A DNA stretch of 64,000 bases from positions 3,968,001 through 4,032,000 of the forward strand of contig NC_079490.1 in the NCBI RefSeq assembly GCF_020520425.1, given 5' to 3'. The notes below the pieces were generated by a model. It saw nothing but the letters and a program-made list of their open reading frames with translations. It made no database searches and was not told where the DNA came from. Shown here piece by piece: positions 19,797 through 62,747 of this stretch; position 1 is the first letter of the stretch; every line of letters begins with the position of its first letter. Both the position numbers and the translations under genes were made by a program. The stretch comes from Spinacia oleracea. Lineage: Eukaryota; Streptophyta; Magnoliopsida; Caryophyllales; Amaranthaceae.

Positions 19797-22700
19797 ATGT
19801 CTAGAACACATAGAGATGCACTTGTCGTCGGTCGGGTTGTCGGTGATGTTTTGGATCCCTTCAATAAGAGTGTAAATATGCGTGTTAGATACGCCAATAG
19901 AGATGTTAGTAATGGATGTGAATTTAGGCCATCTGAGGTTGTTAGCCAACCAAGAGTAGAGATTGGAGGTGACGACCTTAGAACTTTCTATACCTTGGTA
20001 AGTCTATTTAATTTAAAATTTGTCTCTTAAGAACCCTTTCTCAAATCACGTGTCATTTTATCAAAATATTTTCATACTAGTAAAATTATGTAATTTGTTT
20101 TATTTTTTTTGCTAAATGATTGAAAATTTGTAGGTGATGGTGGACCCCGATGCTCCTAGCCCAAGTAACCCACACTTGAGGGAGTACTTGCATTGGTTAG
20201 TTTACAATATTTATACATCTCTAACTTTTTGCCATATTTATTGATGTTTTTCACAATTTTCATATTTGCATACTTAATTGTTTTTATTTTTCTGATTTGA
20301 AAAATATATACTAAAACCCTTCCCCTTTAAGAAAATAATTATGAAAGATAAGATCATTAATTACTTACTTGCAATTGGGATCTTCCATAGGTTATAATCC
20401 CTTATCTCCCCCCCCCCTCCCCCTCCCCTCTTTTCATCATTCATGCTACCAAGTACCAACCACCGTCCGCCACCACCGTCCGCCACCACCGTCGTCCAAT
20501 AATACGCCGTCGGTATTACTAAGAATCCGTCGGAGAAGCGTACGTTCCAAAGATGGCTAGAGTGGTGGTGGTGGTGGTGGTGGTTGTGGTAGGAGGAGGG
20601 TTGGTTGTGTGAGTGTGTGAAGGAGTTTGGGGGAACCTTATCTTCCACCCTTTTATTATTTGTACCTTTAGTAGTACGTACTTGTATTAAATTTCACTCT
20701 TAGACTACGTACGTCATTATAAAATACATATAAACGAAAAATAAATAAAAAAGCCACTCCAAATCATTTTCCAATACTTTGTTCTATGCTTTTTCTTTAA
20801 AAATGATTCTTAACTCTTTTTTTTTTTTTTTTAAAGAAAAATTATTTCATCATAAGTTATTTCAACACTTTGTCTTTTTTGACGGTGCACCTATGTTATC
20901 CGGATTTGGATACTGGAGAAGGGTATGTGTCCAAGTGTATGACACGACTATTTTGTAAAAAAAAAATAAAAAAATTGCATGAGTTAGGTTCAAAATGAAG
21001 TGCAGATGTGTCTATATCCATGTCCGAGTGTCGAGTATCCAACACGAGTATTTGAACCTTTAGGTAAAATGAAGTGTCCAATTAGCAACGTTGTGCACAT
21101 TTGCCAATACACCATCTATATATTTAATCTCATATTAATAATAATTAAAAGATTAAATATTTTTAAAACATTCATTGACATGAATGGAACAAGATACCAT
21201 AAAGTACACATAAAGAAATAAATAAATAAGAGGCAGTCCAAATCATTTCCAGGCACTTTGTTCTTTGCTTTTTCTTCAAATGATTCTTATTTTTTTATAT
21301 TTCTCTTATACTTTGTATTTATGACATCATAAATATCAATTCATGTTCTTAAAGTTTTTACCACATATGCTCTATAATGTAGAGGTTGTTTTTTCGCATA
21401 TCAGATATGTGTGGTAACACACATATCAGCTAAAAGACAAATAGGTAAAAGACAAAATAGTAAGTACCATTCTGTAAAAAAAAGTACCATTCTGTAAAAA
21501 AATGTACCATTTTTGTTTAAAAAAGTACCATTTAATTATTTTTTTGTCCTTTTTCCTATTTTATCTTTTGCTATAATATGTATTTACAAGCACATAACTG
21601 ATATCCGAAAATACTTCCTCCTATAATGTATGCTAACTGGATCCAATTTCTTTTTGGTTAAAGGTTGGTGACTGATATTCCCGGGACCACAGATGTTTCC
21701 TATGGTGAGTATTACTGATGTACGGAGTAGTAGTTGCTAAGTTTAAACATAATTAGACTGATCTGCTCTGATTTTTCTAATTTTTGGTTTAAACTTATTT
21801 GATTTGGTATTATTTGAATGTTTTCTGTGCGTGTTTTTTATTTTGTTAGTCTAATTTGGTCTAATCTGGTATAGCATAATAATAAATTAGAATAAGGTGA
21901 ATATGATAAATTACTCCATATTGAAACATAATGCATACCTTTTTTATTAGAAAATATAGCTATTTGACAAGAAGTTTATGTTATACTCCGTACATAAAAC
22001 CATCATATGTTATATACTTCAAAACGCTACTTATGAAAGTCAAAACACTTGATATTTGGGTGTTCTATTTAGATTAGTAAGTAATGAATTACTCGATTTT
22101 TTCTTGGTTTGGAAATGAGGTAACTATTTATAAACAAATGAAGTATTAAGGATCTTATAAATAGCACACACGTCATTATATTATGTACTCCGTAGCTGCG
22201 AATTTGTGACGATGTCTTCATTTTACCTTAAGTATTCACATTAAAATACTCGACATTTCAACAAACAAAAAAAAAAAAAAATTATATAAAATATGAACTT
22301 TTGACACTTTTTCATGAAGATGGGTTCTTTTCCTGCAAAGAAAGTAATTATTCTTCACTACTTTATTTATTTTATTTAAAAAATGCCCTTTCTCTGACTT
22401 TAGGTTTGCTAACTGAGGTACATGATCCGTACTTGTAGATGAAAGTTAAAATTAGTGAATCGAGTGGTAAATCGAGTTTAAATTTGAGTGCAAAGCTTAA
22501 TCATTTGTACTCTTTGTCTCAACGTATGTACCAAATCCATCTTGTTACTATGATCATGTAAATCACTTTTTACCTTAGCATAGAATCATAGTGTCGAGAT
22601 CATATAATTAGAGTATATGATTCTGAATTGGGACGCTATTAAAGTACGTAAAATAGAGTATTGATTCACACTTTATATCATTAGAGTATATGATACTGGA

Positions 22701-23748
22701 TCGGGTCACTATAAATTGACGTAAAATAGAGTATTGATTCATACTTCTATTACTAGAGTATATGATTCTGGATCAATACACTATTAAAGGACGTAAAATA
22801 GAGTATTAATCCATACCTCTATCGTTAGAGTATATGATTCTGAATCAGGACACTATTAATGGATGTGAAGTAGAGATTTCGTCAATGATTATTTCTCAAA
22901 CGCATAATGATAGAGTATAAGATTACACATGATAGAAAAATGTTAAAAGAGCAAAAATAGATTACTGATTCATACTGAACAAAGTAGCTTCAAATATTCG
23001 AATTGAATTAATAGTCTTTATTGACGGTGGGCACAAAATTTTATGAACGCGTAACACTTTTTTTTTTTGTTTTTTTTTTGTTTTTTAGAAGTGGATGGCA
23101 AATTTTAGCTTTTAAGTACTCCAATACTGAACATGCCCTACATGGCCTTTTGCATTTGTGCCCCCACAACATATTTGTAATATTTTGCTTGATTTGTGTT
23201 AGTATGTGACTATGTGTAGCCATCTTTTATCTTGTTTTTCTATGTATATTTCTTGCGGGTAATTGATAATTTTTATAAACCAACTTAACAAAAGTTGGTG
23301 GAGTTAATGGAGAATCGACCTTGTGACTTGAAGATTATAAGGTCGAACTTTATAAACTACGAAATGTTTGAGAGTGACTCGAGCGAGACCTACGTAGCTA
23401 TGCTGGTTAATCTATAATAGATGTTGGTTCAGTAGGGTCCCTTCATTTTTTTTTTTTTTTTTTTTTAAGTTTTCAACAATGGGTTCTCTCTTAAGTCTTA
23501 ATATGACAATATATTTTTGTTTAGGTCAAGAGTTGGTTTGCTATGAGAGCCCAAGCCCAACAGCAGGGATACATCGATTTGTATTCGTGCTATATCGACA
23601 ACTTGGAAGACAAACCGTTTATCCTCCTGGTTGGCGCCAAAACTTCAAGACTAGAGACTTTGCTGAAATATACAACCTCGGCTTACCCGTTGCTGCCGTT
23701 TATTTCAACTGCCAGAGGGAGGGAGGCTCTGGTGGAAGAAGACTGTGA
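19797..23748 (+). CDS. FT: FLOWERING LOCUS T-like florigen, copy 1 (diverged)
   Basis: FT is a PEBP-family protein made in leaf phloem that moves to the shoot apex and, with 14-3-3 and the bZIP FD, switches on flowering. Exons 19797-19997, 20134-20195, 21664-21704 and 23525-23748 (201, 62, 41, 224 nt, the canonical FT pattern) encode 175 residues. Seen: DPDAP at 71-75, Tyr85 in EYLHW (FT type; TFL1 has His), GIHR at 116-119, external-loop segment [13 protein letters not shown] with Tyr134, Gly137, Trp138 and Gln140, and a [14 protein letters not shown] tail ending GGRRL. These residues favour an activator. Unusual: Pro at 135 (YPPGW instead of YAPGW) and Lys143 (NFKTRD instead of NFNTRD) inside the otherwise near-invariant loop. 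Intron 3 (1820 bp) carries a 73-bp tandem repeat. No stop or frameshift. The stop codon sits in a transposon target duplication. Confidence 0.96.
20369..20640 (+). other. Conserved low-complexity segment in FT copy 1 intron 2
   Basis: C-rich then (GGT)n-rich sequence around the anchor GATGGCTAGAGTGG. Related segments occur in intron 2 of copy 2 (about 47380-47500) and copy 3 (about 59880-60000). Open frames here on both strands come from the simple repeats and are not genes. Confidence 0.6.
22600..22900 (+). repeat. Tandem repeat of about 73 bp in FT copy 1 intron 3
   Basis: The anchor TTAGAGTATATGATTCTG recurs near 22607, 22680, 22753 (as CTAGAG) and 22825, a spacing of 72-73 bp. Each unit ends with AAAATAGAGTATTGATTCAT. 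The same monomer is a part of the roughly 300-bp repeats in FT copy 2 intron 3. Confidence 0.85.
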
Positions 23749-23754
23749 AATCCT

Positions 23755-24639: not shown

Positions 24640-27600
24640 TATATATTAAACTTGTTCACGAAGTTATATACGTATATGATTATATAATAAAAAAGTTATT
24701 ATAATTTAGCGAAAAATCAAAATTTTACGCCTTAATTTATACGCAGTGTTACCCGTTGCAACACACAAATCATACCACAAATATGCTTTACTATTTAAAT
24801 TATTAGTTTGGCAGTCAAAGCGGGAGGTTGTCGTACGCTTAGACTGTCCCTGAAATCATCAAAAAGTACACGCGGAAGACCTTTAGTAAAAATGTCTGCA
24901 ATTTGGTAATGGGACGGTACGTGAAGAACACGAACTTCTCCACGGGCTACTTTTTCACGTACGAAGTGTATGTCCATCTTAATATGTTTCGTGCGTTGTG
25001 TTGAACTGGGTTACCGGAGGAGATAGATGGCACTAACATTATCACAATAAACCAATGTATCTTTCCGGATGGGACAACGGAGCTCCAAAAGTAAGTTTTG
25101 AAGCCAACAAGATTCAAAAACTACATTTGCCACACCACGATATTCTGCCTCGACACTTGATTTGGACAATGTAGGTTGCTGTTTTGAGGACCATGACAAC
25201 AGATTATCACCAAGAAAAATACAGTAACCGGATGTGGAGCGACGAGTGTCTGGACACCCACCCCAATATGCATCTGTATAAGAGACTAGGGATGCAATAG
25301 AAGACTTATACAGATGGAGCCCAAGATCAATAGTACCTTGAATGTAGCGCACAATACGCTTGAGAGCATTCATATGCTCGACTTTCGGATCATGCATGTG
25401 TAAACACACCTGTTGAACAACATAAGAGATGTCTGGCCTGGTAAATGTGAGATACTGCAATGCACCTGCTAGTTGCCTGTAGTGTGTAGGATCCCCATAA
25501 GATGGCCCAGCCGAGGCACCAAGCTTGGCCTTGGTGTCTACGGGAGTGTGACTCGATTTGCAGGAAGTCATGCCTGCACGCTCAATAATATCTGTTGCAT
25601 AGTTCTTCTGAGAGATAAACAAGCCACCTGAAGTGCGGGTAATAGAAATACCCAAAAAATAGCTCAAAGGACCTAAGTCCTTCATTGCAAATTCGGCACT
25701 GAGAAGAGACATGATGGATTTTCTGAGAGCATCTGAAGAAGCTGTGAGAATGATATCATCAACATATAGAAGAATATAAGCAATGTCAGAACCACGACAA
25801 TTGATAAAAAGTGAGTGATCAGCTCGGCTATGGGAGAAGCCAATGGTGAAAACATAGTCAGCAAACCGTTGGTACCAGGCACGTGGGGATTGCCCATACA
25901 ATGACTTCTTCAATAGACACACATGATTTGGGTATTTCGGATCCCGAAAACCCATGGGTTGATGCATATAAACTGTCTCATTAAGATTTCCATGAAGGAA
26001 GGCATTCATGACATCCAACTGATGCATGGGCCACGAATGTGACAGTGCTATACTCAACACGGCCCGAATAGTTGCCGGTTTGATAACCGGGCTAAAAGTT
26101 TCGTCGCAATCCGCTCCAACCTGTTGAGACCTTCCATCACCTACAAGACGGGCCTTATACCGCTCAAAAGAACCATAATATTTCTTTTTATGCCTAAAAA
26201 TCCACATAGAACGAATAAGATTCACATCATTAGGATGCGGTACTAATTCCCACGTCTTATTTTTAATTAGAGCATCATATTCATCAACCATCGCAACTTT
26301 CCAATTCGGGTCATTAAGAGCACTAACGGGATTTCACGGAATAGGCGAAGGATGTGCTAGTGAAGGTGCTCAAATTGAATGGCCTTTTGGGTTAATTTGT
26401 GAATCCCATGTTGGCTTCTTGTGGTCATTCTGGTGGGCTGTTGAGTATGGGTCTGTGGTAATGGGCTGGCAGTAGGTGGGCTAGTTGGAGAAAGTGGTTG
26501 GCGGGTTGCTGGAGGGTTAATGATATTTGGTGTGGTGAATTGGGCCGGCTGCACAGCAGCAGTAGGTGTTTCAGTATCCGGTTTGACCTCGGCCTGGTCT
26601 GTGTTGGGGGGGGGGGTGTTTGGGAAATTGGGTTTGGCATGTTTTGGGCTTGTGTTGCTGAAGTGGGCTGACTGGAGGGAGTCCGGTATTGCACAAGGTA
26701 AGGGGAGAGCCCATTGTTTAAGAAATCATAGGAAGTGTTTGTAGGTTTATTCAAGTTTGAAAATGGGAATTGATTTTCATCAAAAATGACATGCCTTGAA
26801 ATAATTATTTTCTTACTTGATAGATCATAACACTTGTACCCCCGATGATTTGGCGGATATCCCAAGAAAACACAAGGTGTGGAACGGGCTTGCAACTTAT
26901 TTATGGTTGCGGATGGGAAAAGAGGATAGCAAAGACACCCAAAAACCCGTAAATGTGAACAAGATGGTGTTCTTTGGAAAAGAACTTCAGTTGGGGATTT
27001 GTACTTCAAAGTTTTTGTAGGGAGGACATTAAGAAGATATGTGGCCATTTGTAGTGCATGATGCCAAAAGGAAGGGGGCATGGATGCGTGAGCAAAATGA
27101 GTGCGCACGATGTTGTTAATGGACTTGATTTTTCTTTCCGCCTTTCCGTTTTGAGGGGAGGTATGTGAGCACGAAAACCTAAATTGCAAACCATTGGCCG
27201 TGCAAAAGGAATGAAATGGTCCATTATCGAATTCCTGCCCGTTATCACATTGAATATTTTTAATTTCCCGTTCAAATTGGGTTCAGATTAATGCTTTAAA
27301 GGAGAGGAAAATAGTATAAACTTGGGACTTGTTTGCAATGGGAAAGGTCCATAGAAAATTACTATAATCATCAAGGAAAAAGACATAATAGCGGTGCCCG
27401 TTTGAACTTAAAATGGGGGAAGTCCATAAGTCACTGTAAATAATATCAAAAGGCATTGTAGTAAATGATATAGAATCATGAAATGGCAATTTAATGTGTT
27501 TTCCCAAAGGACAAGAAGTACAAAAAGAAATTCCGGCTTTATTACATTTAATCAATGCATCACTAAGCAATGAATTAAGAATGCATGGCCCGGATGCCCT

Positions 27601-28256
27601 AAACAAGAGTGCCACAAATTGGGTGAAGCAGCAAGAAAAGTGGATGGTGATGATATCCTATTCATGGCAGTAATAGGATATAATTCCCCGGTGCTCTCAC
27701 ATCTCATTAGTTGGTTCCCTGTCTGTAAATCCTTCACAGAAAACCCAAGAGGATCGAACTCAACAGAAACATTATTATCGTTAGTGAATTTACGAACGGA
27801 AATAAGGTTTTTGATAAGTTTAGGAGCATGTAAGACATTTTTGAGATGTAAAGGGGGATTAGGCGGGGTGAGGGAAGTGTGACCATAACCACGAATTGGA
27901 ATAGTATGACCATTACCAACAATAATACCAGATTACCAGTATTGTTGCTCAAATTAAAATAAGACGTGAGAGTACCTGTATTGGCAGTCATGTGAGAAGT
28001 AGCTCCCGTATCCATGTACCAATTGTTATCAGGTTGGTGAAGAGAGAAAGTGTACACAACGGCCTCAATATCAGTTGGTGCATATCCGGATGAGGGAGGG
28101 GCTTGCATGGAGTATGCGTGTTGTGCATGGCTTGGACGTGTGGCTGGGCCCAGAATCCCATTAGTGTTGGGCCTTGTTGGGCGTTGTGGTTGCCATGCAG
28201 TAGTAGGATATGGACAAGGAGGCATTGCCCATGGATCATACTTCCATGGAGCATAC

Positions 28257-29617
28257 TGTTAGGTTATGATACATATGACAATTCATAAATCATGCGGAAA
28301 AACCATAAAGCCAGGAAAGCATATTATTTACACGTAATCATTTAGCATAGTTTAGATGCATACACTTTGTTGTGTGCCTTCCCTAGCTGCGCCCGAACCG
28401 AACAAGAACAAGTCTTTAGGACTCCAAATGTCGTCCCTCCGTAGATAGTCCACAGCACGTCCGGATCCACCTTAACCTTGACCAACTAGGATCGCCCTTA
28501 AGGTACTTAGAATTTTCGGCTATTGTAGGCAATTATATGACTGAATTTTTGCTCTCAAAAATCACTTTGAATACTTGAATCGTGTATACAAATAATGACC
28601 CTAGGCCCTTATTTATAGAGGTATGGAAAAGGAATTGTAATCCTACTAGGATGTGGATTTGTTAATTAGAACTTTATTAGGACTCTAAATAACAAAGCAA
28701 ATCTAATAGGATTAGGATTTTAATCTTCGCACGAATCCTAATAGGATTAGGATTTCCCGCACACGCATCGTACAAGCCGTGCACCCGCGCAGGCCTTGCG
28801 GCCCACGACAAGCGCACAGCCCATGTGCGGTGCTGCGCGCGCGCGCGCCCTTGGCTGGGCCTGGCCTTGCGCTGGGCCTGGTCGAGGCGTGCGTTGCTGC
28901 GTGCGGCTCGCTGGGCGATGGCCTGGCTTCGTGCTGGGCCTTCGTCTAGCGGGCCTCGTCCGATGCTAATTCGTACGATACGCTTCCGATTAAATTCCCG
29001 ATTCCGGAATTCATTTCCGATACGAACAACATTTAATATTTCCGATTCCGGAATTAATTTCCGTTTCGAACAAATATTTAATATTTCCGTTTCCGGAATT
29101 ATTTTCCGATTCCGATAATATTTCCGATTCTGACAATATTTCCGTTTCCGGCAATATTTCCGATTCCGGCAATATTTCCATTTCCGATAATATTTTCCGA
29201 TACGTACCATGTTTCCGTTTCCGGCAACATCTACGACTTGGATAATATTTATATTTCCGATACGATCCATATTTCCGTTTCTGGCAATATCATCGTTTCC
29301 GGAGTATTCATTTCTTGCCTGTGACGATCTTAGCTCCCACTGAAACCAAGATCCGTCGGTTCCGAATATCCATAGATAGAGTATTTAATGCCATTAAATA
29401 CTTGATCCGTTTACGTACTATTTGTGTGACCCTACGGGTTCAGTCAAGAGTAAGCTGTGGATTAATATAATTAATTCCACTTGAACTGAAGCGGCCTCTA
29501 GCTAGGCATTCAGCTCACTTGATCTCACTGAATTATTAACTTGTTAATTAATACTGAACCGCACTTATTAGACTTAACATAGAATGCATACTTGGACCAA
29601 GGGTATTATTTCCTTCA
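28257..29617 (-). mobile_element. Nested solo LTR, 1361 bp
   Basis: On the minus strand it starts TGAAGGAAATAATACCCTTG and ends ATCATAACCTAACA, flanked by a perfect 5-bp duplication CATAC (28252-28256 and 29618-29622). Removing it and one duplication joins the host Copia frame as PPPWPYAPWKYDPW, which proves insertion into a Copia element. It contains degenerate tandem repeats of a TTTCCGATTCCGGCAATAT type (about 28980-29290), which produce a spurious basic frame. Confidence 0.95.
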
Positions 29618-30603
29618 CATACGGCCAGGGAGGAGGTTGTTGCGGGGCCACCGCCGGCTGCTGGGAGGTTGGCTGGGCACCGCCGCCGCCGTGGTTATTT
29701 TTGCCACGGTTGTTGTTGGAATTATTACCACGACCCCGATTCTTAGAGTTCCTACCACAATTATCATGATTATGATTAAAATATCTACCATTATTATTAG
29801 AGTTACCTCCATGGTGATGATTGGCAGGCTGCGGTGGTGATGGATCATCGTTCACCAGGAGAGCGGTGGAGCCAGTATCGCGAGCCCTCTCCTTCGCAGT
29901 GGTGTCTTGAAGCTTGAGACGGGAACATGCTTCTGAAAATTTAGGGAGGACATCCCTTGTTGAATATTGGTGACGAAGGTCGAGTACTCCTCTGGCAAAC
30001 CGGCAAGCAGCCGCATCACAAGGCGTTGATCAGAAACCGGTGACCCCACATTCGCCAATTGAGTTGCAAGGGATTGTAGGAGGTTATAATATGCGATCAC
30101 AGATGAGAAATTTACCGGTTTTGTGGTGGTAAATTCGGTTTCAAGATACGCCGCCCTTGTATTCTTGTTATCTTGAAAGATTTGAGCAACCCGGTTCCAT
30201 GCTTGTTCGGCTACGTCATCAACAACTATAACTGAGGTGAGAATGTCGTGAGACAGTGGCATATATCCACTGCAATACAACAGCGTCGAGTCTGTCCCAT
30301 AGGCTTGGATCAGCAGCTTTGGAGGCGGTGTATGCAGCGAGTTCAGCGGCTTCGGTGGGGGGTATGATGTGGTTAAGAACATTGTGTATCCTTGCCTGCA
30401 CTTTAAAGAGATTTGCCCACTCATGGTATTGACCCGTTACAAGGTCCAGGGGGATGGAGATCAACGACTTCACATTCGTGACAACTAGGGCAGAGTGAAA
30501 GGTGTTTTTCTCAGCCATGGGAGAAGATGGGAAGAGGTTCAGAAATGGAGGAAGAAGGTGGACGACGGCTAGGTTAAGAGGGAGGATACCTAGTCTGATA
30601 CCA

Positions 30604-45424: not shown

Positions 45425-46079
45425 GGGGTCATATAAGTATGTACGGAGAAGTTACTATAGTTCAGACTTAATTCCACATACAGAGAAATAATTTGGATTA
45501 TTTTAAGCCAAATTTTCATACTTCTATGTTTTTTGTTCTACCCGCTTCTACTTTATTCTATTTTGGCATTCAATTTACTATCTTACCCTTATTCACATAA
45601 TAATTACTCTCCCTGTTATTACCCATTAATTTACACCTGGCTTAGTTTTTCCATCATTTTCTACACTTACCACTTCTTAAAACAAGAGTCTACAATAAAT
45701 GGGTATTTAAAAAAAGGAGGGAGTTTTTGTATAAGAATGCAATTCACTATCACTCAAACACCCTAAATATTCCCCCACATGCCCACCCCCTGCCCACACC
45801 CCATCCCCCACCTCTGCCCCCGCAGAAAAAGAGAAGAATAAGCCAAAACGATAGTGAGGCATTAAGCTTCATGTTCCTTGTAAAACATTTAGCTTTCACT
45901 TACAACCTCTCTACATCGTCCAATGTTCTAAACTTCTTTCAAGAATCTAACCCCATTATAGTTATGAAAGTAAGTGGACCTCTAGTCGTTTTAATCACAG
46001 AAAAAGATTTGGTAGGCCAAAATATTGGAAAATGAGATAAAACAAAACATGAGAATAATGAGAAATATAGTTCCTACAC

Positions 46080-46276
46080 CGTACTAACGGGGTAGCAACT
46101 GATGCAAGATGAGATGCGTTGAAAAGATGATGGATACCTTCACCTTAGGTTGATGAGTTACTATATAAGTCCACATTGGGTACCTTCTTCTCCACAACTA
46201 CTTAGTAACCCTCCTTTTATTTATCCAAATAGTAAGTTGTAGGAAAAGAAAACATTTTTTTCACCATTCTCTATAA
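46080..46276 (+). promoter_or_regulatory. Core promoter and leader of FT copy 2
   Basis: TATATAAG at 46162-46169, about 115 bp before the ATG. The upstream block AGCAACTGATGCAAGATGAG is conserved in all three copies; here the TGTG of copy 3's motif reads GATG. Confidence 0.65.
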
Positions 46277-49200: not shown

Positions 49201-50883
49201 TGTAATAGATAAAACAAGTGAAACTCTATGTGGGGGTCCTTCTTTCTCTATCCACCCTTTCTATATTATCAAAATCATATCATTAGAGTATATAATTCTT
49301 GATCGGAACATTATTAAAGAACGTAAAATAGAGTATTGATTCATACTGATTGAAGTGGATCTTAGTATAAGATTCATAATTCTATATTTTTTTCGGGTAT
49401 GGATACGGATACGACGACCAACTGAAGTACTCATGTTATAATAGGAACGATAAATCTATGAACTAACTGATGTCTCTAGTTTGAACTTGTAATAGATAAA
49501 ACAAGTGAATCTCTATGTAGGGGTCCTTCTTTCTCTATATACTCTTTCTATATTGTCAAAATCATATCATTAGACTAAATGATTCTAGACCAGAAAACTA
49601 TTAAAGAACGTAAAATAGAGTATTGATTCATATTGATTGAAGTGGATCTTGGTATAAGATCTATAATGCTATAGTTTCTTTACTATTTTTATTCGGGTAT
49701 GGATACGGGTACAGATACGACGACCAAATGAATTGCCCATATTACATAGGTGAACGATAAATCTATGAACCAATTGATATTTATAGTTTTAACTTATACC
49801 AATTGCCTGTTGGTTCAGTGGTGATTGAGGCTGAACTTGGTAGGGAGAACTCGTGTTCGATCCCCCGCAACAACAATTGGGAAGGGACTGGAACCCATCC
49901 ACCTAGAACTCGCCCCGAATCCGAATTAGCTCTAAGGGTGAACCGGGTGCTAACACCAAAAAAAAAAAACTTATACGTAGTAATAGATAACAAGTGAATC
50001 TTTGCTGTAGCTCTTAGTTGCAAATGCTAAGTGTGATTCAATCATTTGTACACTACTACAATGTCTCTATGTGTGGGTCCTGCTTTCCCTTATGTAGAAC
50101 ATTGTTCATCTGTCAAGAATCAATTCAGTTTTGCGTACCAAAATTCATCTTGGTACTATGATCATGTCAATGACCATTTTCCCTCTCCATATTGTCAATA
50201 TCATGTATCATTAGAGCATATGATTCATAACACTATTTAAGGACATAAAACGAAGTATTGATTCATACTGATTGAAGTTTATTGTGGTATAAATGTCTCT
50301 CAATCCATAAAGATAAGAATATAAGATTATACATTTTGATTTCATAACAATATTAAAGGATTAAAATAGAATATTGATTCATACTGGATAAAGTAGCTCA
50401 AAAAAAATTCCGAATTATTAGTCTTTAATGACACTGGACCCCAAAATTTGTAAATGCGTGGCACTCTTTTTCATCTTTTAATGTTTTGTAGAAGTGGATG
50501 CCAAACTTTTGGCATCTGAAATTTGCATTTATGCCCCTACAAGATATTTATAATATCTTTGCTTGATTTTTGTTAGAATATGAAGCGATCTTTTCATCTT
50601 AGTTTTAAAGTTTTTCAACAATTGTTTCTCTCAATATTATGACAATATACTTTGTTTAGGTCAAGAGGTGGTTTGCTATGAGAACCCAAGACCCTCAGTT
50701 GGAATTCATCGTTTCATATTTGTGTTGTTTCGACAAATGGGAAGGCAAACCGTTTACGCACCCGGGTGGCGCCAAAACTTCAATACTAGAGACTTTGCTG
50801 AAGTGTACAACCTCGGTTTACCCGTTGCTTCAGTCTATTTCAATTGCCAAAGGGAGGGAGGTTCGGGTGGAAGAAGGTCGTAA
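46277..50883 (+). CDS. FT: FLOWERING LOCUS T-like florigen, copy 2
   Basis: Exons 46277-46477, 46645-46706, 47826-47866 and 50660-50883 (201, 62, 41, 224 nt) with GT-AG introns encode 175 residues of the FT/PEBP family, the phloem-mobile flowering signal. Seen: [18 protein letters not shown] with Tyr85, GIHR anion-pocket segment, external loop [13 protein letters not shown] with Tyr134, Gly137, Trp138, Gln140, and a C-terminus GGSGGRRS. These are activator-type residues, so it is predicted to promote flowering. Unusual for FT: Met128 (RQMGRQ, usually Leu), PRPSVGIHR (usually PSPTAGIHR) and ASVYFN (usually AAVYFN or AAVFYN). It differs from copy 3 only at residue 56 (Val here, Ile there) and residue 99 (Thr here, Val there). 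Intron 3 is 2793 bp, swollen by tandem repeats and a SINE. No disabling change seen. Confidence 0.97.
47380..47500 (+). repeat. (GGT)n-rich segment with a local 20-bp duplication, FT copy 2 intron 2
   Basis: A (GGT)n run near 47411-47430 and two adjacent copies of GTGGGAGGATCTTAAGGGGT (about 47432-47474). The surrounding GAAGATGGCTAGAGT anchor is shared with intron 2 of the other FT copies. Confidence 0.7.
48510..49790 (+). repeat. Tandem repeat of about 300 bp in FT copy 2 intron 3
   Basis: Four to five units. Anchors: ATCATATCATTAGAGTATAT near 48674, 48969, 49274 and 49561; CGGGTATGG...TACGACGACCAACTGAA near 48530, 48800, 49100, 49390 and 49700. Each unit contains one 73-bp monomer of the kind tandemly arrayed in FT copy 1. 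Copy 3 intron 3 has about one and a half units (about 61070-61690). Confidence 0.9.
49800..49967 (+). mobile_element. tRNA-derived SINE in FT copy 2 intron 3
   Basis: A-box TGGTTCAGTGGTGATTG and B-box GTGTTCGATCCC, A-rich 3' end, perfect 9-bp duplication AACTTATAC at 49791-49799 and 49968-49976. It interrupts a unit of the 300-bp tandem repeat, so sister units are the empty site. A diverged copy in the opposite orientation is at about 56711-56872. Confidence 0.9.
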
Positions 50884-51609
50884 AAGTGCGACACTTTTTT
50901 ACTCTACCGTCTAAGAGACCGTGTCAAAACATCTACCGCGCTTTTTAACATTCTGTTTAATAGTAATAATAAAAGTTGTCATTATTAAATAAGGAATCGA
51001 TGCTCTTCTAAAACAAGTACCTTATAAATTTGTCACAAAAAACTGTCCTTTTAGCCATTTTTGTTAGAGTAATGCAATAATTGTAATGATCCACATAGCA
51101 GTGACTATTGAGAATCAGAGTAGTAATTACTGACATTTTTTTAGGGAAATTACTGTTTTGTTACTCTAATATAAATGTAAACATTAAATTATTTACCTAA
51201 GTTATATTATAAGGCATTTATAATAAGTCTTAAATTCTTAATACTTTGTATGAGTTTTTTCTTTGTAATGTACAATCTCAGAGGGTCTTGAATAAAAGTT
51301 AAGCTTTTTTTGTTTTCATATGAATTCTTGCTTTCTTGTTAAATGTTTATGGTTCTTATCAGCCCGACCCAATAGTATTTGGGCCTCATGTATTTAAATT
51401 TTGCAAAGGTTCACTTTTATATCAGCCCAACTTTTTAAAACAAGACCCAAATCTAGTTTTACACCAAAGTATAACAAGACCCAATTCGTATGAGTGTGCA
51501 TCAATAAATTATCCAGTTGTGGAAGGAGGAACTATGGCATACTCTATTTGTCTCATTTTACTTGTGTATTTTTAACTAAAAATCTCTCATAAATTAGTCA
51601 AATAGAAGT

Positions 51610-52013
51610 TGTTCCGGTGTTGAAACAATGGGCTTCAGATTGAAGAACCTTGTGTTGAGAAAGATCTTGCTTTACTGATTGAGTTGTGTCCGAAAATACC
51701 TGCACAATGAACAAAGTAACTGGCCTCGGGGGTGTTCCGATGAAAGCTCCTCCGATGCCTAAGTAAGTACTTGGTTCGGATTCTAGAGAGAATTCTCTAG
51801 ATTAGTGTTAAGGCTTTAAATTGGACGTACCTTGGTGTGTGAGCCTTGACGGCTTATTTATAGTTTTTGTGTTGTAAATGTCCTAATAGGTTATTTATTA
51901 TTTGGTAGGCCTTGGGCCTTGTGTTTGGCTGATTGGCCTTTAATGGGTAAATGACTTTATATGTTGTTGTTGTAGCCTTTTGGACTTTTGGGCTATTGGC
52001 CCAATTGGTGTCA
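51610..52013. mobile_element. Solo LTR at the junction of units 2 and 3, no target duplication
   Basis: Starts TGTTCCGGTGTTG, ends AATTGGTGTCA; same family as 18793-19198 (CTCGGGGGTGTTCCGA-like and TTGGACGTACCTTG shared). Left flank GAAGT and right flank ATTGG do not match. DNA left of it aligns with the sequence downstream of FT copy 3 (to about 63466); DNA right of it aligns with unit 2 from about 42378. Confidence 0.85.
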
Positions 52014-52802
52014 ATTGGACACCCAAACATAAGTGAAAGAGTAAGTTAAGAAGATTAGTTTTGAAAGTTTCTTATTTGTTTCCCAAAATAGTGCAACACC
52101 CACTAAATAAAGAATTAGATATATTGTTTTAACCTATGTTACTTGGATTCAGATACCCATGCCGGACACGGTTACGTGTCCAAGTGTCTGACACGACCAT
52201 CTTGTGAAAAAATTGCTTGATTTTAGTCCAAAATGAAGTGTCCAAGTGTCCATATCCATGTCTAGGTGTCGAGGATCCGACATGGATAATTTTTCAACTC
52301 AACAACTAATCATTTGCACTCCGTTTCTCGTATAACAATTCGGGGTTATATAATTATTATTTTTTGCTTTTGGGGGGTGGTTTTAGGTGCATAAACTATT
52401 GTTATCTCTTGTTCATAGTACGTGAATTGGACATAACATCTACATCATGTCATAGGAGTATGATAAAATGCATCTTGGTATTTACAAGTGAGTAAGTGAC
52501 CAATGCCAATGGATCAAATGATTCTAAGTTGTAAGGTTTATCATCAGGCAAATCGAATAAAGTTTTTAAGGATCATTCCTTTTCTTAAAGAGTTGAAAAG
52601 CTCACATATTCAGGATTTAGGATTCCTTTTCATTTCCTTTCACAAACCCTGTAAAGCTCCTTATCTTACCAAAGTGGGCAAGGTTCCTTAGGAGAATGAC
52701 CTTTTTGATCAACCTTTTGCCAATTTTATAACTTACTCAGGTGGAAATGCAAATGCTTATATGCTTAAATGTGACGCGCAGCATCATAGATAATGGGGTG
52801 AC

Positions 52803-53074
52803 TAAAGATGGCCATGGGCCACGTCCCGATACGAAAAGCCCGACCCTATATGAGCACGAAGTCATGGGTCGTGGGTCGGGTCCACATTGTTTTGGAGAAA
52901 GCACGACACAGCCAAACACGACAAAACACGCTAAATTGAGTACAATTAGGCTTAGACACGACGACCTGTGGGCATGGGCCGGGTTTGTACCCGTTTGAAA
53001 TTCACGACCTGACTCGGCACGATGCAGAGTGACTTGGCTGAAGCCCGACCTGGCCCGTCCCACACCCATCTTTA
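52803..53074. mobile_element. hAT-type MITE in unit 3
   Basis: Ends TAAAGATGGCCATGGGCC and GTCCCACACCCATCTTTA, flanks GGGGTGAC (52795-52802) and GGGTTGAC (53075-53082) agreeing at seven of eight bases. Unit 2 has CAGGGTGACTTGTT at about 43157 with no insertion, the empty site. Confidence 0.85.
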
Positions 53075-53747
53075 GGGTTGACTGGTTTAAAATTGAGGTC
53101 ATTGTAATGAATCGATTTAGAGGGGTTATTGATGAGGTGTGGAAACTTCGGAAGATGGTCAAGGTAGCTTCGTGTTATACAAGTTTATCGAGAAGTGATA
53201 AATCCAAGGAAATTTTTTACTTCTTCCAAGGAAATCCACATTTTTTTAAAGTTGATTTCCTTGGAAAGAAGTGAAATTCTTCCTTGGATTTATCATTTCC
53301 CAAGTTTATCGGAATGAAAAGTAGTAAATTTTATTCTCAAATGTTTTATCATTCTGCATATGAATAGTTATTAACCAGTCAAAACAAGCTAAAATCATGT
53401 CCAAGAACCAATAGCCAACGTTTGATAAGCTAGTCCAACGAAGATCCAAAACTTGTTTGCATGAGTTAATAATTCAAACTATTAGGCACCTTTGGTATAC
53501 GAAGTAATATGTCATATGTATATATGGAAAGTGCACGAGAACTATGACTCTTATTTGTGCAAAATGGTAATACTTCCTATGTTCTTATTTACATGATAAA
53601 TGAGGTTAGAAATTTACTGATTTTATCTTTTACGGATTTGCAAGTAGTACTCCCACAAATTCCGATCCAGAGTATGCTCCTATCCACCGATTAAATGAAT
53701 AACTATCAGGAACGAAGTAATCTTTTATATTTCTGTAAGAGGACAAT

Positions 53748-54346
<599 letters not shown>

Positions 54347-54371
54347 AGAAAAAAATTCTAATTTATTCCGA

Positions 54372-54527
54372 TTAAGCTTCCATCCTATTAATCTGGAAAT
54401 TCCTCTCAGATACAAGGAAATGATTCAGTTCCAGAGCCAAAGATCGTAGTTCTCGGACGAGCAGTCGAAAAGATTCTGGAGCATCTTCAGGGTTAGGTAT
54501 TGTTCCTCCAATGATCGTAGTAAGGTT
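54372..54527 (-). pseudogene. rpoB: Plastid rpoB 3' fragment
   Basis: Minus-strand frame reads [20 protein letters not shown], continues [14 protein letters not shown] and ends INRMEA with TAA at 54374-54372. It is next to rpoC1 in the native order, so this 300-bp stretch was transferred as one piece. Confidence 0.92.
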
Positions 54528-54785
54528 CTAGTCTATCTCTTTCCTATATATGGAAAGTTAAAAAATCATCATAATTCACACAAACACCTTTGACTTCCTC
54601 TCGTGGTTTATACATAAGAAAAAACATAGTCGTGTGGGATCTTATTAGATTCGTATCAGTAAATATTATTTAAATATCAACTTTTTATAATTTTTCCGAT
54701 ACACAATTAGAGATATTAATATTTGAAATCGTGCATTGGAAAACGTGCCTAAATAATTGTGTCATTTAAAAAAGAACGGAGGAAG

Positions 54786-57166
54786 TATGAGCAAAATGAT
54801 TGTTTTTCATACTTCTTAGTACTAAGTATTACAAAGTACATAGTTTTCATGGTTTAATTAGATTCCTCATAAGTGGTAGGACTAATAGTTTGGATTACTT
54901 TTAGACCTTGTTCTCTTTAACTTATAAGATTTTATTTTCAGGTTCTATAAATTCAGATAAGTTTCTACGGAGTATAAGTTAAATAAGGTCTTCTAAATTC
55001 CAATAAGATGTTATAAGTTTTTTTTTCTTTGGAGGGAATATGGTGTACAAGTTCCCATAAGGTCATATAAGTTTCAATAAATCATATAAGTTTCAATATG
55101 TAATATTATGATTATTTGCATTGTTATATTAAATAAATCATATTTATGTTATTATATTAAAATAATTTGTGATTATTTGAAGTTAATAATTATCAATGAT
55201 ATGTAAGTATTAATTAATATGTTATTGTTAATTTATTATCAATATATAAAAGAAATGTTTAATGAACACTTTTAAAATTACGTGTACATCACAAATCAAT
55301 GGACGGTCTTTTTAGTGGGACATATAACCAATAAACATGTAGTATCATAACGTTTTGCAACACCACCTGTAAATATTTAAAGGTAACCCATTATTTTCCC
55401 TAATAATAATGATAGTTATATTTCTTACCATAATGTGTTAATGTAGTGTAGACTTGTAGTGTTGGGCTTCGGGTTTGTATTCTTCCGGAGGATGGAGCGT
55501 TATCATATACCGTTCGGCTAATCGTCTATCTTTGAAGTCTATTCACAAGTTTTCTTGGAACTGGGGCTGGGGTAGTATGAGGTTAGAGCGTAATTTCATT
55601 GTACGTTCTGTTCTATAAGAAGTTTTTTATTAGCTCGGAGTCATTGTAATTCTCCCATTCGAAAGGATGGTGTCAGGTAGTCCGCCTGAGTTTTCTTTCC
55701 TTATTAAAAAAAATCAAGTATATTTCTTCTTCTGTATCGTCCTCTTCAATCAACACGTTTCCCAAACCAACATCCCGCCATATTTCATGGGACACTAATG
55801 TAAGCATGAGAGAGTATGTATGAACTATTTCCCCCAAAGTATTCAAATTTTGGTGGAACTTGATTTAATATAATTTCTTGACCGCCCGGTCTTACCCTTT
55901 AAAAAAGCTATACTTGTAAGTTGTGAAATACTCGTAGAGAGTATCAAATAGTTGTTTTTCGTCCGTGATGAAGTTACATTACAGAGTATACAAAGGTTTA
56001 TTAAAGAGTAAATCAATGTTACTGACTCTTTGTTTTACCTCAAGTACCCGTGTGGATCCTCGACACTTGGACATGAGTATGGACACTCCAACACCATGTT
56101 GGTCTAAAATCAAGGAAAATTTCCACAATTTAGCCGTGTCGAACACTTGGACACGTACCCGTGATACTAGTACTCGAGTCAGAGTAACATAGGAGTAAAT
56201 CACAAATATTTTTTTACAAATCGGTAGAATTCATACTTGGATTTAATAAATTTTGGATTACTATTATCAGTATTCAAATGGTTAAAAGTTTAGTATTAAT
56301 CTAATAAACATTAAATAAATTCTAATAAGATTTAGTCGGTCTTATAAATTTTAATAAATTAAAATAAGTTTAGATAAGTTAAGTTCAAATAAGTTCAGAA
56401 CTTATAAGTTGAATGAAATACACTCTTAGTCAATTTTCCATACAAATGTAATTCGATGTGAGTTCCCGGGCACCCTAAAAACTCTCCCACGTGGCCACAC
56501 CCTCATTGAGCTGGGCATCTATGAAAATGACAAGATATACGAAGTGCATCGTGTATAATGTTGCTACTTGCATACAGCGCACTGAGCTGGACAAACCAAC
56601 ATCTTCAAATTCATAAAAAGCTTAAATTTGGGTGCTTGCTTGATGGGAAAAAACTTTGCATATTTTAGTTCTTGATACTTACTGATTTTTTTTTCTTTTC
56701 TTTTTTGTACCATCCAAATCTCTCTAAGGGTTAATCCGAATTTGGGACGAGTTTTGAGTGGATAAGTATCAGTTCCCTCTCAATTGTTGTTGCGGGGGAT
56801 CGAACACGAGATCCTCCGTACCAACTACCAATTTCAGCCTCAATCACCACTGAAACAACTTGCAATTGGTTTATTTTCCACTTTTTCCCTATGTGTTTTT
56901 ATATTACCATTTTGTTTTTGTTTTTAGGGAACCCCAAGAGGTAGGATTATAGTCAGTAGCTACATTCAAGCCAATAATCGATAACTCGTCCTCCCACAAT
57001 CATTGCCCAATCTCCCGGAGTGAGCTAAATTGTGGATAACTTTGTTATCGCTACGTTTAACAAAAGAGTAAACAATATCAACAAACATAAAGAAAAAATG
57101 ACTTCAACTATTAAATGTAAGCCACTAGAAACAGTTACGTTCATAATATTCTCATACATCAAGGGG
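54786..57166. other. Unit 3 upstream region
   Basis: Collinear with unit 2 about 44200-45230. Holds the conserved block with a G-box CACGTG at 56488-56493 (2.4 kb before FT copy 3), a diverged SINE in inverted orientation at about 56711-56872 (B-box complement GGGGATCGAACACG), and unassigned AT-rich DNA. No gene seen. Confidence 0.55.
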
Positions 57167-57169
57167 TCA

Positions 57170-58009
57170 GAGCATGTTTATCAAACACCAAAATTTGAAC
57201 TTCAACTCAATAAAATATATTTTCTCCGTTCCACAGTATATGCATCATTTCTAATTTGCGCACTATTCATCAATTAACTCTGACAATCTTTCTTTCGCCA
57301 TTATGTAAGAAAAAACATAGTCAAGTGAGATTTTGTTAAATTTGTATTAATGCGAGGATTTCAAATATCTATTTTTTATAATTTTTACTTATACGCATTT
57401 AGAGATATTAATATCCAAAGAAGCATGTTGGCATACGTGCAAAAAGAAATGGTGTATGTATTGTGGAACGGAAGTAGTAACATTTTATATTTTCTCTCTC
57501 CCAAACACCAAACCCAACACCAACAATATTTAACAACATTTATCAAGCACAATCTCTAAAATGTCACTTTACAATTAAAACACCATCTATAAAATGTCAC
57601 TTTGCATTTGAAAAAATTAAACAATATTGTTTGGTCCCCTCATATGCCACATGTCAAGTCTTCCATGCGTGAAATTGGGGGAGATGATACACATACCCCA
57701 GAGGTATGTAGGACCCACATACCCTAGTCATTTATTGGTCCAGGTCAGCTTAAGGAAATTTTATTTTAGAGGTAGATGGGTTTTATTTGGGGTGAGACCA
57801 ATCAAAGAATAGGGTATGTAAGGGCCCACATACCCCCAGGTATGTGTAGCCTTTGCGTGAAATTGGTTTTCCATTTGGTGTTCATGAACACCAATTCTCA
57901 AATGGTTTCACTCTCTATGTCTTTCTCTTTCATCTCTCTAACTATTTTATTGTATTTTATTCAATTCTCTCTCTTGAACACCAAAAATTATTGTTTGATA
58001 AACATGCTC
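57170..58009. mobile_element. Composite MITE, 840 bp, in the FT copy 3 upstream region
   Basis: Inverted ends GAGCATGTTTATCAAACACC and TTGTTTGATAAACATGCTC, TCA on both sides (57167-57169, 58010-58012). Unit 2 has the empty site GGGGTCATATAAG at about 45425. Nested inside are a Stowaway-like element (about 57221-57477) and a segment with inverted CACATACCCC/GGTATGTGTAG termini (about 57689-57850). Confidence 0.82.
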
Positions 58010-58689
58010 TCATATAATATGTAGTTTGCTATAGTTCAGCTTAAATCCCACATACAAACAATAGTTTGGTTTCTTTTAAGCCAAATTTTCATACTCCGGT
58101 TTTTATGTATCCATTTTCCAAAAAGAGTTTTTTTTTTTGGGGTTCTATCCGCTTCTTATTCTATTTTTGTTCTCTGCTACTTTACGCACTATTACCCATT
58201 AATTTACATCTTACTTTTTTCACCTTTTTTACACAGAATCACCACTCCTCGAAACAAGAGTCTACAATAAGGATATAACTTAAAAAAGAAAAGAAAAGGA
58301 AGAGACTTGTATAAGAATGCAATTCATATCACTCAAACACCTCCAATATTCCCCCACATGCCCACCCCCTTACCCACTCCCACTCCCCCTCCCCCACCTC
58401 TGCCCCCTCAAAAAAGAAGAAGAATAAGCCAAAACGATAGTGAAGCTTATTAAGTTTCATGTTCCTTGTAAAACATTTGGTTTTCATTTACAACATCTCT
58501 ACATCATCTGATGTTCTAAACCAAATTCTTCCAAGAATCTGAACCCATTATAGTTATGAAAGTAAGTGGACCTATACTTGTGTTGATCACAGAAAAAGAT
58601 TTGGGTGGCAAAAATATTAGAAAATGAGATAAAACAAAAGTTATGCTTATAACATGAGAATATTGAGAAATATAGTTCTTACCCGTACT

Positions 58690-58882
58690 AAAAACGGGGT
58701 AGCAACTGATGCAATGTGAGATGCGCTGAAAAGATGATGGATACTTTGGGTTTGAGGACTTAGTATATAAGTGTACATTGGGTATCTTCTTCTCTACAAC
58801 TTCTTAGTAACACGTCTTTTATTTTCCTAAATTAGCGCGTATCTTAAAAAAATAAATTATTTTCTTAACCCATTCCCTATCA
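58690..58882 (+). promoter_or_regulatory. Core promoter and leader of FT copy 3
   Basis: TATATAA at 58764-58770, about 115 bp before the ATG. TGTGAGATG at 58715-58723 fits TGTG-N2-ATG, the CONSTANS-responsive element described for Arabidopsis FT; copies 1 and 2 have CATGAGATG and GATGAGATG at this position. Confidence 0.6.
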
Positions 58883-61800
58883 ATGCGTAGAGCAACAAGA
58901 GATCCTCTCGTGGTCGGTCGGGTTGTCGGTGAAGTTTTGGACCCCTTCAATAGGAGTGTAAATCTGAGAGTAAGATTTACCAATAGAGATGTTTTTAATG
59001 GATGTGAATTCAGGCCATCTGAGGTTGTTAATCAACCAAGAGTCGAAATTGGAGGTGACGACCTTAGGACTTTCTACACCTTGGTAAGCCTGTCTAATTT
59101 GCATGAGAAAACAAACCAACACTCATACATAATATAATATAATATACATAATAATACCATTTTATTCAAAATAATTTCTTACGAGTAGTATTATTTGATA
59201 TGTTTTGTTTGCTAAATGAGTGAATAATTGTAGGTGATGGTGGACCCTGATGCTCCTAGCCCAAGTAATCCACATCTGAGGGAGTACTTGCACTGGTCAG
59301 TTACACTATTATGTTTCGATTGTTTTCACTTTTACTCTTCACTTTTAGAGTTTTAGCTCCTTTTCTTAGTTACTTTTATTGATTTTGATACTTAAAATTT
59401 ACACTTTTCTTTTTTTTGTTTTGAAAAAAGAAAAGAAATAAAAAGGATGGATTCGTACTTAGATGCACTAGAGGATGATTTTGGCACATCTACTCTAATA
59501 ATAACAAAGCTTTTTGCGATCTGATCTGTTCAAACTGAGTTGTGCCAAAATCAACCTTATCCCTTGTATGGCAAAAGCTTTTCATTTCTCTCTTAATTTT
59601 ACCCTACTCCTATGAAACATTATGGTATATTCTCTATCTAGGTCACCTCAATTTAATAAACAATAACCACAACTTAATTTTTGTATTTACTTACTAAACA
59701 AAACCTTACAACCAACACTCCTAATTAAAACTATATTTCTAAGAGATAGATTAGCATTTGTTACCCTCTTTACACCATAGGAAATACTTACATGCAATTG
59801 AGATCCCTCCAAATTTTGTTAATAACATTCCTCATCTTTCCCTCTCCTCATTTCCCCATTCATGCAACCAAACCATCGGCCGCCACCATCGTTGGCCATC
59901 GGAGAAGCTCACGTGCCGAAGATGGCTTAGAGTGGCTAAGGGGTGGTGAAGGTGGTGGAGGAAAGGGGTGGTTGTTGTTTGAGTGTGTGAAGGGGTTTTG
60001 GGAACCTTATGTTCTACCCTTTTATTATTTGCATCTTGAAATACTTTAGTAGTAGTACGTACTCACCTAATCGTATTAGATTTTGCTATTTGTGACGTCA
60101 TTATAAAGTACACATAAGAAAAAAAGAAAAAGAAAATAGTCCAAATCATTTTCAGACACTTTGTTCTTTGCTTTTTTCTTCAAATGATTCTTAAATATTT
60201 TGCCACTTAGGACTATATAAATGTTTGCTAACTGGATCCAATTTTTTTTGGTTAAAAGGTTGGTGACTGATATTCCCGGGACAACAGGTGTATCATACGG
60301 TGAGTACTACTGGTTATCAAATGGGCCGTTAAATATTTCCTCCATTTAAAAGTGTAATCATTTCTAAATGGAGGAAGAATTAAAGTTCTAATTTATGCAT
60401 ATATGCACATATGTTTTCTTACTTGGAGTTTATTACGTTTTCTTGTCAAAAAAAAAAGTGACTCGTTGGAGAGCGCTTGTTGCTTCTATTTACCTTAATA
60501 CTAATGTTAAAATACTGGGTGTGGATGTCAACTACCTTATTTGATAAAGTCTTGAGTGGGTCGTATCCAAGACCTGATATCGAATCCCGTCTACATCATT
60601 TGTCACCTTGCCTTAGTGGCTCTCTCTACACTTTAGAGAAAAAGAGTTGTTAAAATACTTGGTACTTGAACAATTATATGAAATATTTGACGTTTTACAT
60701 AAAACGGTACATGCTAATTTAAGATGAATCGAAATTAATTTCGCCACACTGTTAGTAGCCGAATTGGCTCTAATATACTCCGTATTATATGTCTGATATT
60801 ATTAATGAACTAATTTTACCTTTAAAAAAAATTATGTTCCATATTATCCATCCATGTATTATGTGATATCTAGTGGCAATGTGCAATTATGCTATTGGTC
60901 CTTGAAGGGTTTATTCCTTTATCCTTTTCTTGTATGAAAAAGACCACACAAGTGTAGAAAACCATTTCCCCTTTCTCCAATTGCTTATAACGAACAACAT
61001 AGCTTTTGTTTTCTCTAACTTAGTTCGTTTCCGGCTCCCGTTGGTATAGTTTCTTTACTGGATTATTCGGGTACGGGTACGGGTACGGGTACGGTTATGA
61101 CGACCAACTGAACTACTCATGTTCATAGGTGAAAGATAAATCTATGAATCAATTGATATTTCTAGGTGATGTTTGATTGCAAGTAATTAGAGGGGGAAGT
61201 GTGACTTCCTAGGAAGTACACATTTGTCAAGTTGTTTGGTTGACAAATATGATAAAGGAAGTAGAACTTCCTAGGAATTTGGAGTTTTCATGGGACATGG
61301 GAAGTGGCTTACCCACCCTCCCCTTGGTAAGTCACAATTCCCATGCCATTTCTTATGAAATGTGAATTCCTTAGTGCAACCAAACAAGAGTATTTCATGT
61401 CCTAGGAAGTTCAATGGAAGAACTTCTCATGAAAACAAACTTCCTATAGGAATTCAATTCCTATGTCAACCAAACTACCCCTAGTTTAAACTTGTAATAG
61501 ATAAAACAAGTGAATCTCTTTGTACTAGATAAAACAAGTGAATCTCTATGTGGGGGGTCGTTCTTTCTACATATACCATTTCTATTGTCAAAATCACATC
61601 ATTATAGTATATGATTCTGGATAGGAACACTATTAAAGGACGTAAAATAGACTATTAATTCATACTGATTGAAGTGGATCTTGATATAAAATCCATAATG
61701 CTATAGTTTCTTTATTACTATTTTATTCGGGTATGGGTAAAGGGTACATATAAGGCAAACGACTGAATTACCCATGTTACATAGGTGAACGAGAAATCTA

Positions 61801-62747
61801 AACACCAATTGATATTTCTAGTTTAAACTTGTAATAGTTGATGAAGCAAGTAAATCTCTGTTATAGCTTTGAGTACAAAAGCCAAGTGATTTAATCATTT
61901 GTACACTACTACAATGTCCCTATGTGTGGGCCCCTTCTCTTATGTAGTACATTGTTCATCTGTCAAGAATCAATTCAGTTTTGCGTACCAAAATTCATCT
62001 TGGTACATGTCAATGACCATTTTCCCTTTCCATATTGTCAAGATCATGTATCATTAGATTATATGATTCTGGATCCTAACACTATTTAAGAACGTAAAAT
62101 AAAGTATTGATTCATACTGATTGAAGTTTGTTGTGGTATAAATGTCTCTCAATCCAAAAAGATAAGAATATAAGATTATACATTTTGATATCAAAACAAT
62201 ATTTAAGGATTTAAAGGGTGAAAATAGAGTATTGATTCATACTGGATAAAATAGCTCAAAAAAATCCCGAATTATTATCCTTTAATGATACTGGGCCCCA
62301 ATTTTTATAAACGTGTGGCACTCTTTTTCATCTTTTGATATTTTGTAGAAGTGGATGACAAACTTTTGACATCTGAAATTTGCATTTGCGCCCCCACAAG
62401 ATATTTATAATATCTTTGCATGATTTGTGTTAGAATATGTACTATGTAGCCATCTTTTCATCTTAATTTTAAAGTTTTTCAACAATTGTTTCTTTCTTAA
62501 CATGAACAATGTATTTTTTTTAGGTCAAGAGGTGGTTTGCTATGAGAACCCAAGACCTTCAGTTGGAATTCATCGTTTCATATTTGTGTTGTTTCGACAA
62601 ATGGGAAGGCAAACCGTTTACGCTCCCGGGTGGCGCCAGAACTTCAACACTCGAGACTTTGCCGAAGTGTACAACCTCGGTTTACCCGTTGCTTCGGTCT
62701 ATTTCAATTGCCAAAGGGAGGGAGGTTCGGGTGGAAGAAGGTCGTAA
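58883..62747 (+). CDS. FT: FLOWERING LOCUS T-like florigen, copy 3
   Basis: Exons 58883-59083, 59234-59295, 60259-60299 and 62524-62747 (201, 62, 41, 224 nt) encode 175 residues. The protein is the same as copy 2 except Ile56 and Val99. It has Tyr85, the GIHR segment, and the [13 protein letters not shown] loop with Tyr134, Gly137, Trp138 and Gln140, all typical of flowering-promoting FT rather than TFL1 or repressor-type FT. Start at 58883 aligns exactly with copies 1 and 2 and is preceded by the same TATA-leader arrangement. Intron 3 (2224 bp) carries fewer repeats than copy 2 and a private MITE at 61166-61480. No disabling change seen. Upstream regulation may differ from copy 2 because of the TGTGAGATG motif and the composite MITE. 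Confidence 0.97.
61166..61480. mobile_element. MITE in FT copy 3 intron 3
   Basis: Begins GTGATGTTTGATTGCAAGTA, ends ATGTCAACCAAACTACCC, flanked by CTAG (61162-61165 and 61481-61484). The host repeat elsewhere reads TTTCTAGTTTAAACTTG (61816) without it. Related in sequence to 44282-44707. Confidence 0.72.

Follow-up and report, generated by a model that had tools for sequence, protein, structure and literature searches.

A 64,000-nucleotide stretch of the Spinacia oleracea genome (RefSeq assembly GCF_020520425.1, contig NC_079490.1, positions 3,968,001 to 4,032,000 of the forward strand; hereafter the window) carries three intact genes of the FT (florigen) clade, all on the + strand and each of 175 codons when spliced by GT-AG sites. 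The combined evidence makes it likely that the window holds the spinach FT locus, in which three florigen genes arose by two tandem duplications and copies 2 and 3 differ mainly in regulation. Spinach harvest is set by bolting time, and the cluster probably lies within a published bolting quantitative trait locus (QTL). The anatomy of the cluster shows which copies are distinguishable, establishes the upstream DNA that each inherited and indicates that selection has maintained copy 2 as well as copy 3.

Three FT genes in one cluster

The exons measure 201, 62, 41 and 224 bases in all three copies and are separated by GT-AG introns that keep the frame (Table 1). Four exons, of which the second and third comprise 62 and 41 bases, are the pattern of FT-clade genes. 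The Pfam PBP domain scored above its cut-off in copies 1 and 2, the two copies scanned, and the closest solved relatives of copy 3 are FT (6igg, E 8.6e-88) and Hd3a (3axy, E 7.7e-86), followed by TFL1 and CEN. Tyr85, which is replaced by His in TFL1, is retained in the three proteins together with Glu109, Tyr134, Gly137, Trp138, Gln140 and Asn152. Membership of the FT clade is thus indicated by the PEBP domain, the closer relationship to FT than to TFL1 or CEN, Tyr85, and the presence of Gln140 and Trp138 in segment B. An initial annotation of the window had described three complete FT genes as a local cluster, and its coordinates, exon lengths and 175 codons were right for every copy. The same applies to its report of Tyr85, Tyr134, Trp138 and Gln140 in all copies and of two residue differences only, V56I and T99V, between copies 2 and 3.

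The copy 3 protein was searched against its own genome at the level of exons, so that match counts are lower bounds. At least 36 exon-level matches were obtained, of which at least nine, including the best five, fall within the cluster. No fourth FT gene adjoining the cluster was found among the matches listed. Additional FT-like matches occur at C4:175.18 Mb and C6:127.85 Mb, with weaker ones elsewhere.

In copies 2 and 3, segment B (residues 128-141) departs from Arabidopsis FT (AtFT) through L128M only. Copy 1 displays A135P inside this activator loop and N143K just after it; neither change occurs in the other four sequences compared (AtFT, Hd3a and copies 2 and 3), which agree with one another at both sites. 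Since the two substitutions lie in or beside segment B, copy 1 appears the least certain copy as to activator strength. The initial proposal that all copies look like functional activators is therefore retained for the activator-type residues, which the three copies share, and is less certain for copy 1. Elsewhere FT is a mobile leaf signal that acts at the shoot tip together with FD and 14-3-3 proteins, and all three copies would encode mobile, leaf-made activators acting with the same partners. A repressor of the beet BvFT1 type has residues of its exon-4 loop replaced, by Asn134 and by Gln at positions numbered 141 and 142 (PMC10392752; here and below, papers are cited from the available parts of their text). 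This arrangement is found in none of the three copies, which all read Y, then A or P, then PGWRQN. The spinach FT homologues were judged unlikely repressors by Hirakawa et al. 2021 (PMC8231376).

Table 1 Features of the window, with positions counted from its first nucleotide.
Feature	Position	Strand	Details
FT copy 1	19797-23748	+	exons 19797-19997, 20134-20195, 21664-21704, 23525-23748
FT copy 2	46277-50883	+	exons 46277-46477, 46645-46706, 47826-47866, 50660-50883
FT copy 3	58883-62747	+	exons 58883-59083, 59234-59295, 60259-60299, 62524-62747
Copy 2 unit	42369-51607	+	collinear homology with copy 3 unit
Copy 3 unit	52021-63467	+	head to tail with copy 2 unit
Copy 1 proximal promoter	19245-19796	+	homologous to ~45740-46276 (copy 2) and 58327-58882 (copy 3)
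Distal upstream block, copy 1	7968-12031	+	conserved with 36465-40098; best stretch 11199-11275
Distal upstream block, copy 2	36465-40098	+	best stretch 39227-39303
FAS1-like gene (CAF-1 large subunit)	789-5410	-	exon-sized open frames only; left neighbour of cluster
Copia-type long terminal repeat (LTR) retrotransposon pieces	25014-30424	-	between copies 1 and 2

Growth and divergence of the cluster

Two sets of collinear matches are present in the window, which argues for two successive tandem duplications. The copy 1 and copy 2 units are collinear over 7968-23741 and 36465-50876, and the match of copy 1 with copy 3 continues to 24277. The older duplication involved a unit of ~14-16 kb, running from 7968 to 23.7-24.3 kb and matching 36465 to ~50.9-51.2 kb, and this unit carried FT plus its distal upstream block. 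The later duplication, of ~9 kb, generated the head-to-tail copy 2 and copy 3 units and extends just 3.9 kb upstream of copy 2. A sequence of ~350 bases is repeated with 78% identity at 18784-19128, in the copy 1 upstream region, and at 51604-51938, immediately beyond the copy 2 unit; it may be a small mobile element that sits at the junction of the duplication. Related minisatellite-like units occupy intron 3 of all three FT copies (22588-22889, 48647-49795 and 61566-62176) and are expanded differently, the repeat period being 72 bases in copy 1 and 305 bases in copy 2.

Copies 2 and 3 are distinguished by 27 of their 528 coding bases, and 24 of these changes are silent. By the NG86 method their replacement divergence (dN) is 0.010 and their silent divergence (dS) 0.218, while two other methods gave dS values of 0.15 and 0.18. 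Between copy 1 and copies 2 and 3, dS amounts to 0.45-0.57 and dN to 0.08-0.09. For copies 2 and 3 the Kimura two-parameter distance (K80) in non-coding DNA amounts to 0.25 for the promoter and to 0.22, 0.28 and 0.35 for introns 1, 2 and 3, respectively. Of the five non-coding parts compared, the 700-base 3' flank (K80 0.074) differs least between the two copies. Non-coding divergence depends on the aligner, the differing share ranging from 11 to 28% of aligned bases by aligner and part, 3' flank excepted; with a cheaper-gap aligner it is 12% in the promoter, 11% in intron 2 and 15% in intron 3. Because non-coding and silent divergence are too large for alleles, copies 2 and 3 are old duplicates kept alike by selection and not tandem alleles. 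A recent origin for their near-identical proteins was rejected in view of the dS and the large promoter and intron divergence.

Changes were polarised with copy 1 and compared with a neutral expectation of 74% replacement. The copy 2 branch carries 8 silent and 3 replacement changes (P 0.0015 against neutrality) and the copy 3 branch 10 silent changes and no replacement (P 1.3e-6), while 6 further changes of ambiguous branch are all silent. As replacements lie far below 74%, each branch is constrained by itself. Copies 2 and 3 have each been under purifying selection since their split, as has copy 1 against both, and neither copy 2 nor copy 3 looks to have been pseudogene-like for most of its life.

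Each of the three copies shows 74.2% identity to AtFT over 163 residues of a solved construct that presumably contains engineered changes. Among the positions conserved between AtFT and Hd3a of rice, 6 are altered in copy 1 alone and 6 jointly in copies 2 and 3. Copy 1, initially described as older and diverged, and the copy 2/3 lineage are instead equally old sisters. The likeness of the 3' flanks also makes reads from the 3' untranslated region, initially recommended for discriminating the copies, the poorest choice for copies 2 and 3. After removal of poorly aligned 5' stretches, 109 of 1326 non-coding sites differ between copies 2 and 3 in the 3' part, against 246 of 1596 in the 5' part (Fisher P 2.6e-9). 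Later sequence exchange (gene conversion) in the 3' half of the pair would explain the greater likeness and is offered here as a lead.

Upstream DNA inherited by the copies

The proximal promoters of the three copies align over ~550 bases and contain a common TATATAAG box and a common run, CAACTGATGCAA. Farther upstream, copies 1 and 2 possess a distal block of ~4 kb, in which 86% of aligned bases are identical when a gap-tolerant aligner is used. For comparison, the same measure gives 77% for introns 2 and 3, 74% after shuffling of one side (a single shuffle) and 75%, which equals the shuffled level, for the DNA at 12-19 kb. Beside copy 3, no match to the distal block of at least 60 bases on the same strand, or of at least 100 bases on either strand, was found. 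A 27-base probe taken from the best stretch of the block, allowing up to 3 mismatches, matched the window twice only, in the copy 1 and copy 2 blocks. The 77 bases at 11199-11275, which lie inside the best window of the upstream comparison, were considered as a separate conserved enhancer and rejected, and only the whole block is claimed. The rough chance of at least 74 of 77 matches somewhere in a block with a mean of 86% is 0.16 (7e-7 per window at a 75% background).

The distal block may represent the 5' portion of an adjacent transcript. The blocks of copies 1 and 2 display similar open frames on both strands, and none of 10 distal-block frames has a Pfam domain at cut-off. An exon-like stretch on the + strand at ~11680-11818, with its match near 39.8 kb, ends at GT and differs in length between the copies by net threes; it is possibly the remnant of a gene co-duplicated with FT. 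In Arabidopsis and Brassica, FT activation is aided by the distal Block C, which has a CCAAT box that NF-Y binds (PMC3469537, PMC5157953, PMC12380478). The spinach block is a possible counterpart of Block C. CCAAT boxes are not enriched in the window (187 against 195 expected). A perfect TGTG-N2-ATG CONSTANS motif (CORE) lies within 1 kb of the start codon in copy 3 only, at -168. As a signal it was rejected, being at chance level: in about a quarter of cases three 1-kb promoters would contain one or more such motifs by chance.

Copies 2 and 3 encode almost the same protein, and the difference between them would lie mainly in regulation, because copy 3 is without a distal block of its own. In a more specific version, to which little probability is given, copy 3 would be a near-copy-2 florigen under proximal control only, because the second duplication left the distal block behind, or would share the block of copy 2 ~19 kb away. 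Were this true, the cluster would be a natural enhancer-deletion experiment inside one locus. The triplication as such may, as the initial annotation proposed, alter dose, tissue or day-length response.

Published spinach FT genes, alternative readings and neighbouring DNA

Quantitative PCR (qPCR) primers published for the spinach FT gene Spo11981 match copy 1 without mismatches and give on spliced copy 1 a product of 214 bases, the published length. The pair, whose forward primer sits across the junction of exons 2 and 3, shows 1 + 3 mismatches to copy 2 and 1 + 4 to copy 3. By this exact match and the published qPCR, copy 1 is Spo11981 and is spliced and expressed. For both accessions studied, leaf expression of Spo11981 increases at the reproductive stage (PMC8045288). 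Hirakawa et al. 2021 reported five spinach FT homologues, three of which, SoFT2a, SoFT2b and SoFT3, are on scaffold p065.1 (PMC8231376); five FT-like copies are also counted in PMC12581244. The set of three comprises gene models g24569, g24571 and g24573, numbers that make the genes near-adjacent. SoFT2a and SoFT2b group with beet BvFT2 (bootstrap 76%), SoFT3 falls in a third group, and all three are within the bolting QTL qBt3.1 (logarithm of odds 5.4; 7.5% of variance) (PMC8231376). Judged by number, grouping and species, these genes are very probably the present cluster. The same number lies on one scaffold, with two close genes and one distinct, and they are probably the same genes in another line. 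Copy 1 is probably SoFT3, and copies 2 and 3 are each probably SoFT2a or SoFT2b, names that follow from grouping and not from a sequence match. The FT array is a plausible source, among others, of qBt3.1. SOV4g003400 (SpFT) is described as rising with longer light and as higher in the bolting-susceptible line 12S4; its name points to a location close to the beginning of chromosome 4, hence perhaps to this cluster, with no particular copy assigned.

The three-gene cluster thus appears to be already in print. The available text of Hirakawa et al. gives no spacing, duplication units, upstream blocks or FAS1-like neighbour, and no description of duplication units or upstream blocks was found in the spinach FT/PEBP literature searched, which is no proof that none exists. 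The present analysis adds the FAS1-like left neighbour, the two successive tandem duplications and the unequal upstream inheritance. Tandem duplication of FT-like genes is also described in the same plant family, for Chenopodium FTL2-1/FTL2-2 and the quinoa Chr06 FTL cluster (PMC10392752, PMC9871630). However, those genes are described as FTL2 or tied to BvFTL3 by synteny, while SoFT2a and SoFT2b group with BvFT2. The "recent duplication" reported for SoFTL1 fits copies 2 and 3, while SoFTL2 of the same paper has Pro140, a residue carried by none of the three copies (PMC5068931).

The reading of the window as the spinach FT locus with three florigen genes has several points against it. In copy 1, the loop that determines activator or repressor action contains A135P and is flanked by N143K. 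The share of the shorter sequence that is matched is 0.70 for the distal block, equal to that of intron 3 (0.70) and below that of the proximal promoter (0.77). The identification of SoFT2a, SoFT2b and SoFT3 with the copies is by number and grouping, and qBt3.1 is an interval, not a gene, that explains only 7.5% of variance. The two substitutions in copy 1 affect residues common to AtFT, Hd3a and copies 2 and 3, and could mean that copy 1 is now weakened, neutral or repressing in function and that the florigen role lies with copies 2 and 3. This is improbable, as copy 1 retains Tyr134, Gly137, Trp138 and Gln140, its published transcript goes up and not down at the reproductive stage, Hirakawa et al. 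thought repression unlikely for the spinach homologues, and copies 2 and 3 likewise share 6 departures of their own. A pure dosage effect, in which copies 2 and 3 are redundant, equally expressed and matter only as extra FT protein, would agree with their nearly identical proteins and conserved proximal promoters. It is a possible but rather unlikely account given the unequal upstream architecture, in which the shared unit ends 3.9 kb before copy 2 and the distal block is missing from copy 3, a difference that would affect expression.

The two residue differences and the rather alike 3' part of copies 2 and 3 would also be expected if they were two haplotypes of one gene misassembled in tandem, a reading that is hardly credible. 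Divergence of this order (coding dS 0.15-0.22; 11-28% of aligned non-coding bases, 3' flank excepted) far exceeds that of alleles within one species. The units also differ in content: the copy 3 unit alone has a plastid-like stretch, and intron 3 of copy 2 contains a 305-base repeat array. In addition, another spinach assembly (Hirakawa et al. 2021), of 935.7 Mb in 287 scaffolds against 894 Mb in 242 contigs here, has three FT homologues on one scaffold. The initial annotation had named a haplotype artefact as one finding that would overturn its claim; such an artefact is excluded in substance by the divergence and further disfavoured by the other assembly. The duplicated FT locus therefore stays the preferred reading.

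To the left of the cluster, eight frames of the FAS1-like gene were scanned, of which two show Pfam CAF1A_dimeriz, at 1001-1243 (E 4.2e-7, over the cut-off) and at 1635-1967 (E 0.0019, below it). In Arabidopsis, FAS1 flanks FT, which has four exons and is single-copy at its own locus. AtFT shares the activator residues and a near-equal length with the spinach copies. The adjoining FAS1-like gene, as marked by the domain over the cut-off, is the flank expected of an orthologous FT locus and argues that the cluster occupies the ancestral FT locus rather than a transposed site. The Copia-type pieces contain RVT_2, SH3-like and gag_2 domains over the cut-off, and Pol_BBD below it. The sole Rfam match of the window is the Plastid-psbN 5' UTR at 53943-54003 (E 2.1e-15). 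An open frame at 53984-54415 that overlaps it has no Pfam match and presumably resembles plastid rpoC1. The stretch of nuclear plastid DNA to which both belong covers 53943-54415 on the - strand and sits ~4.5-5 kb upstream of copy 3.

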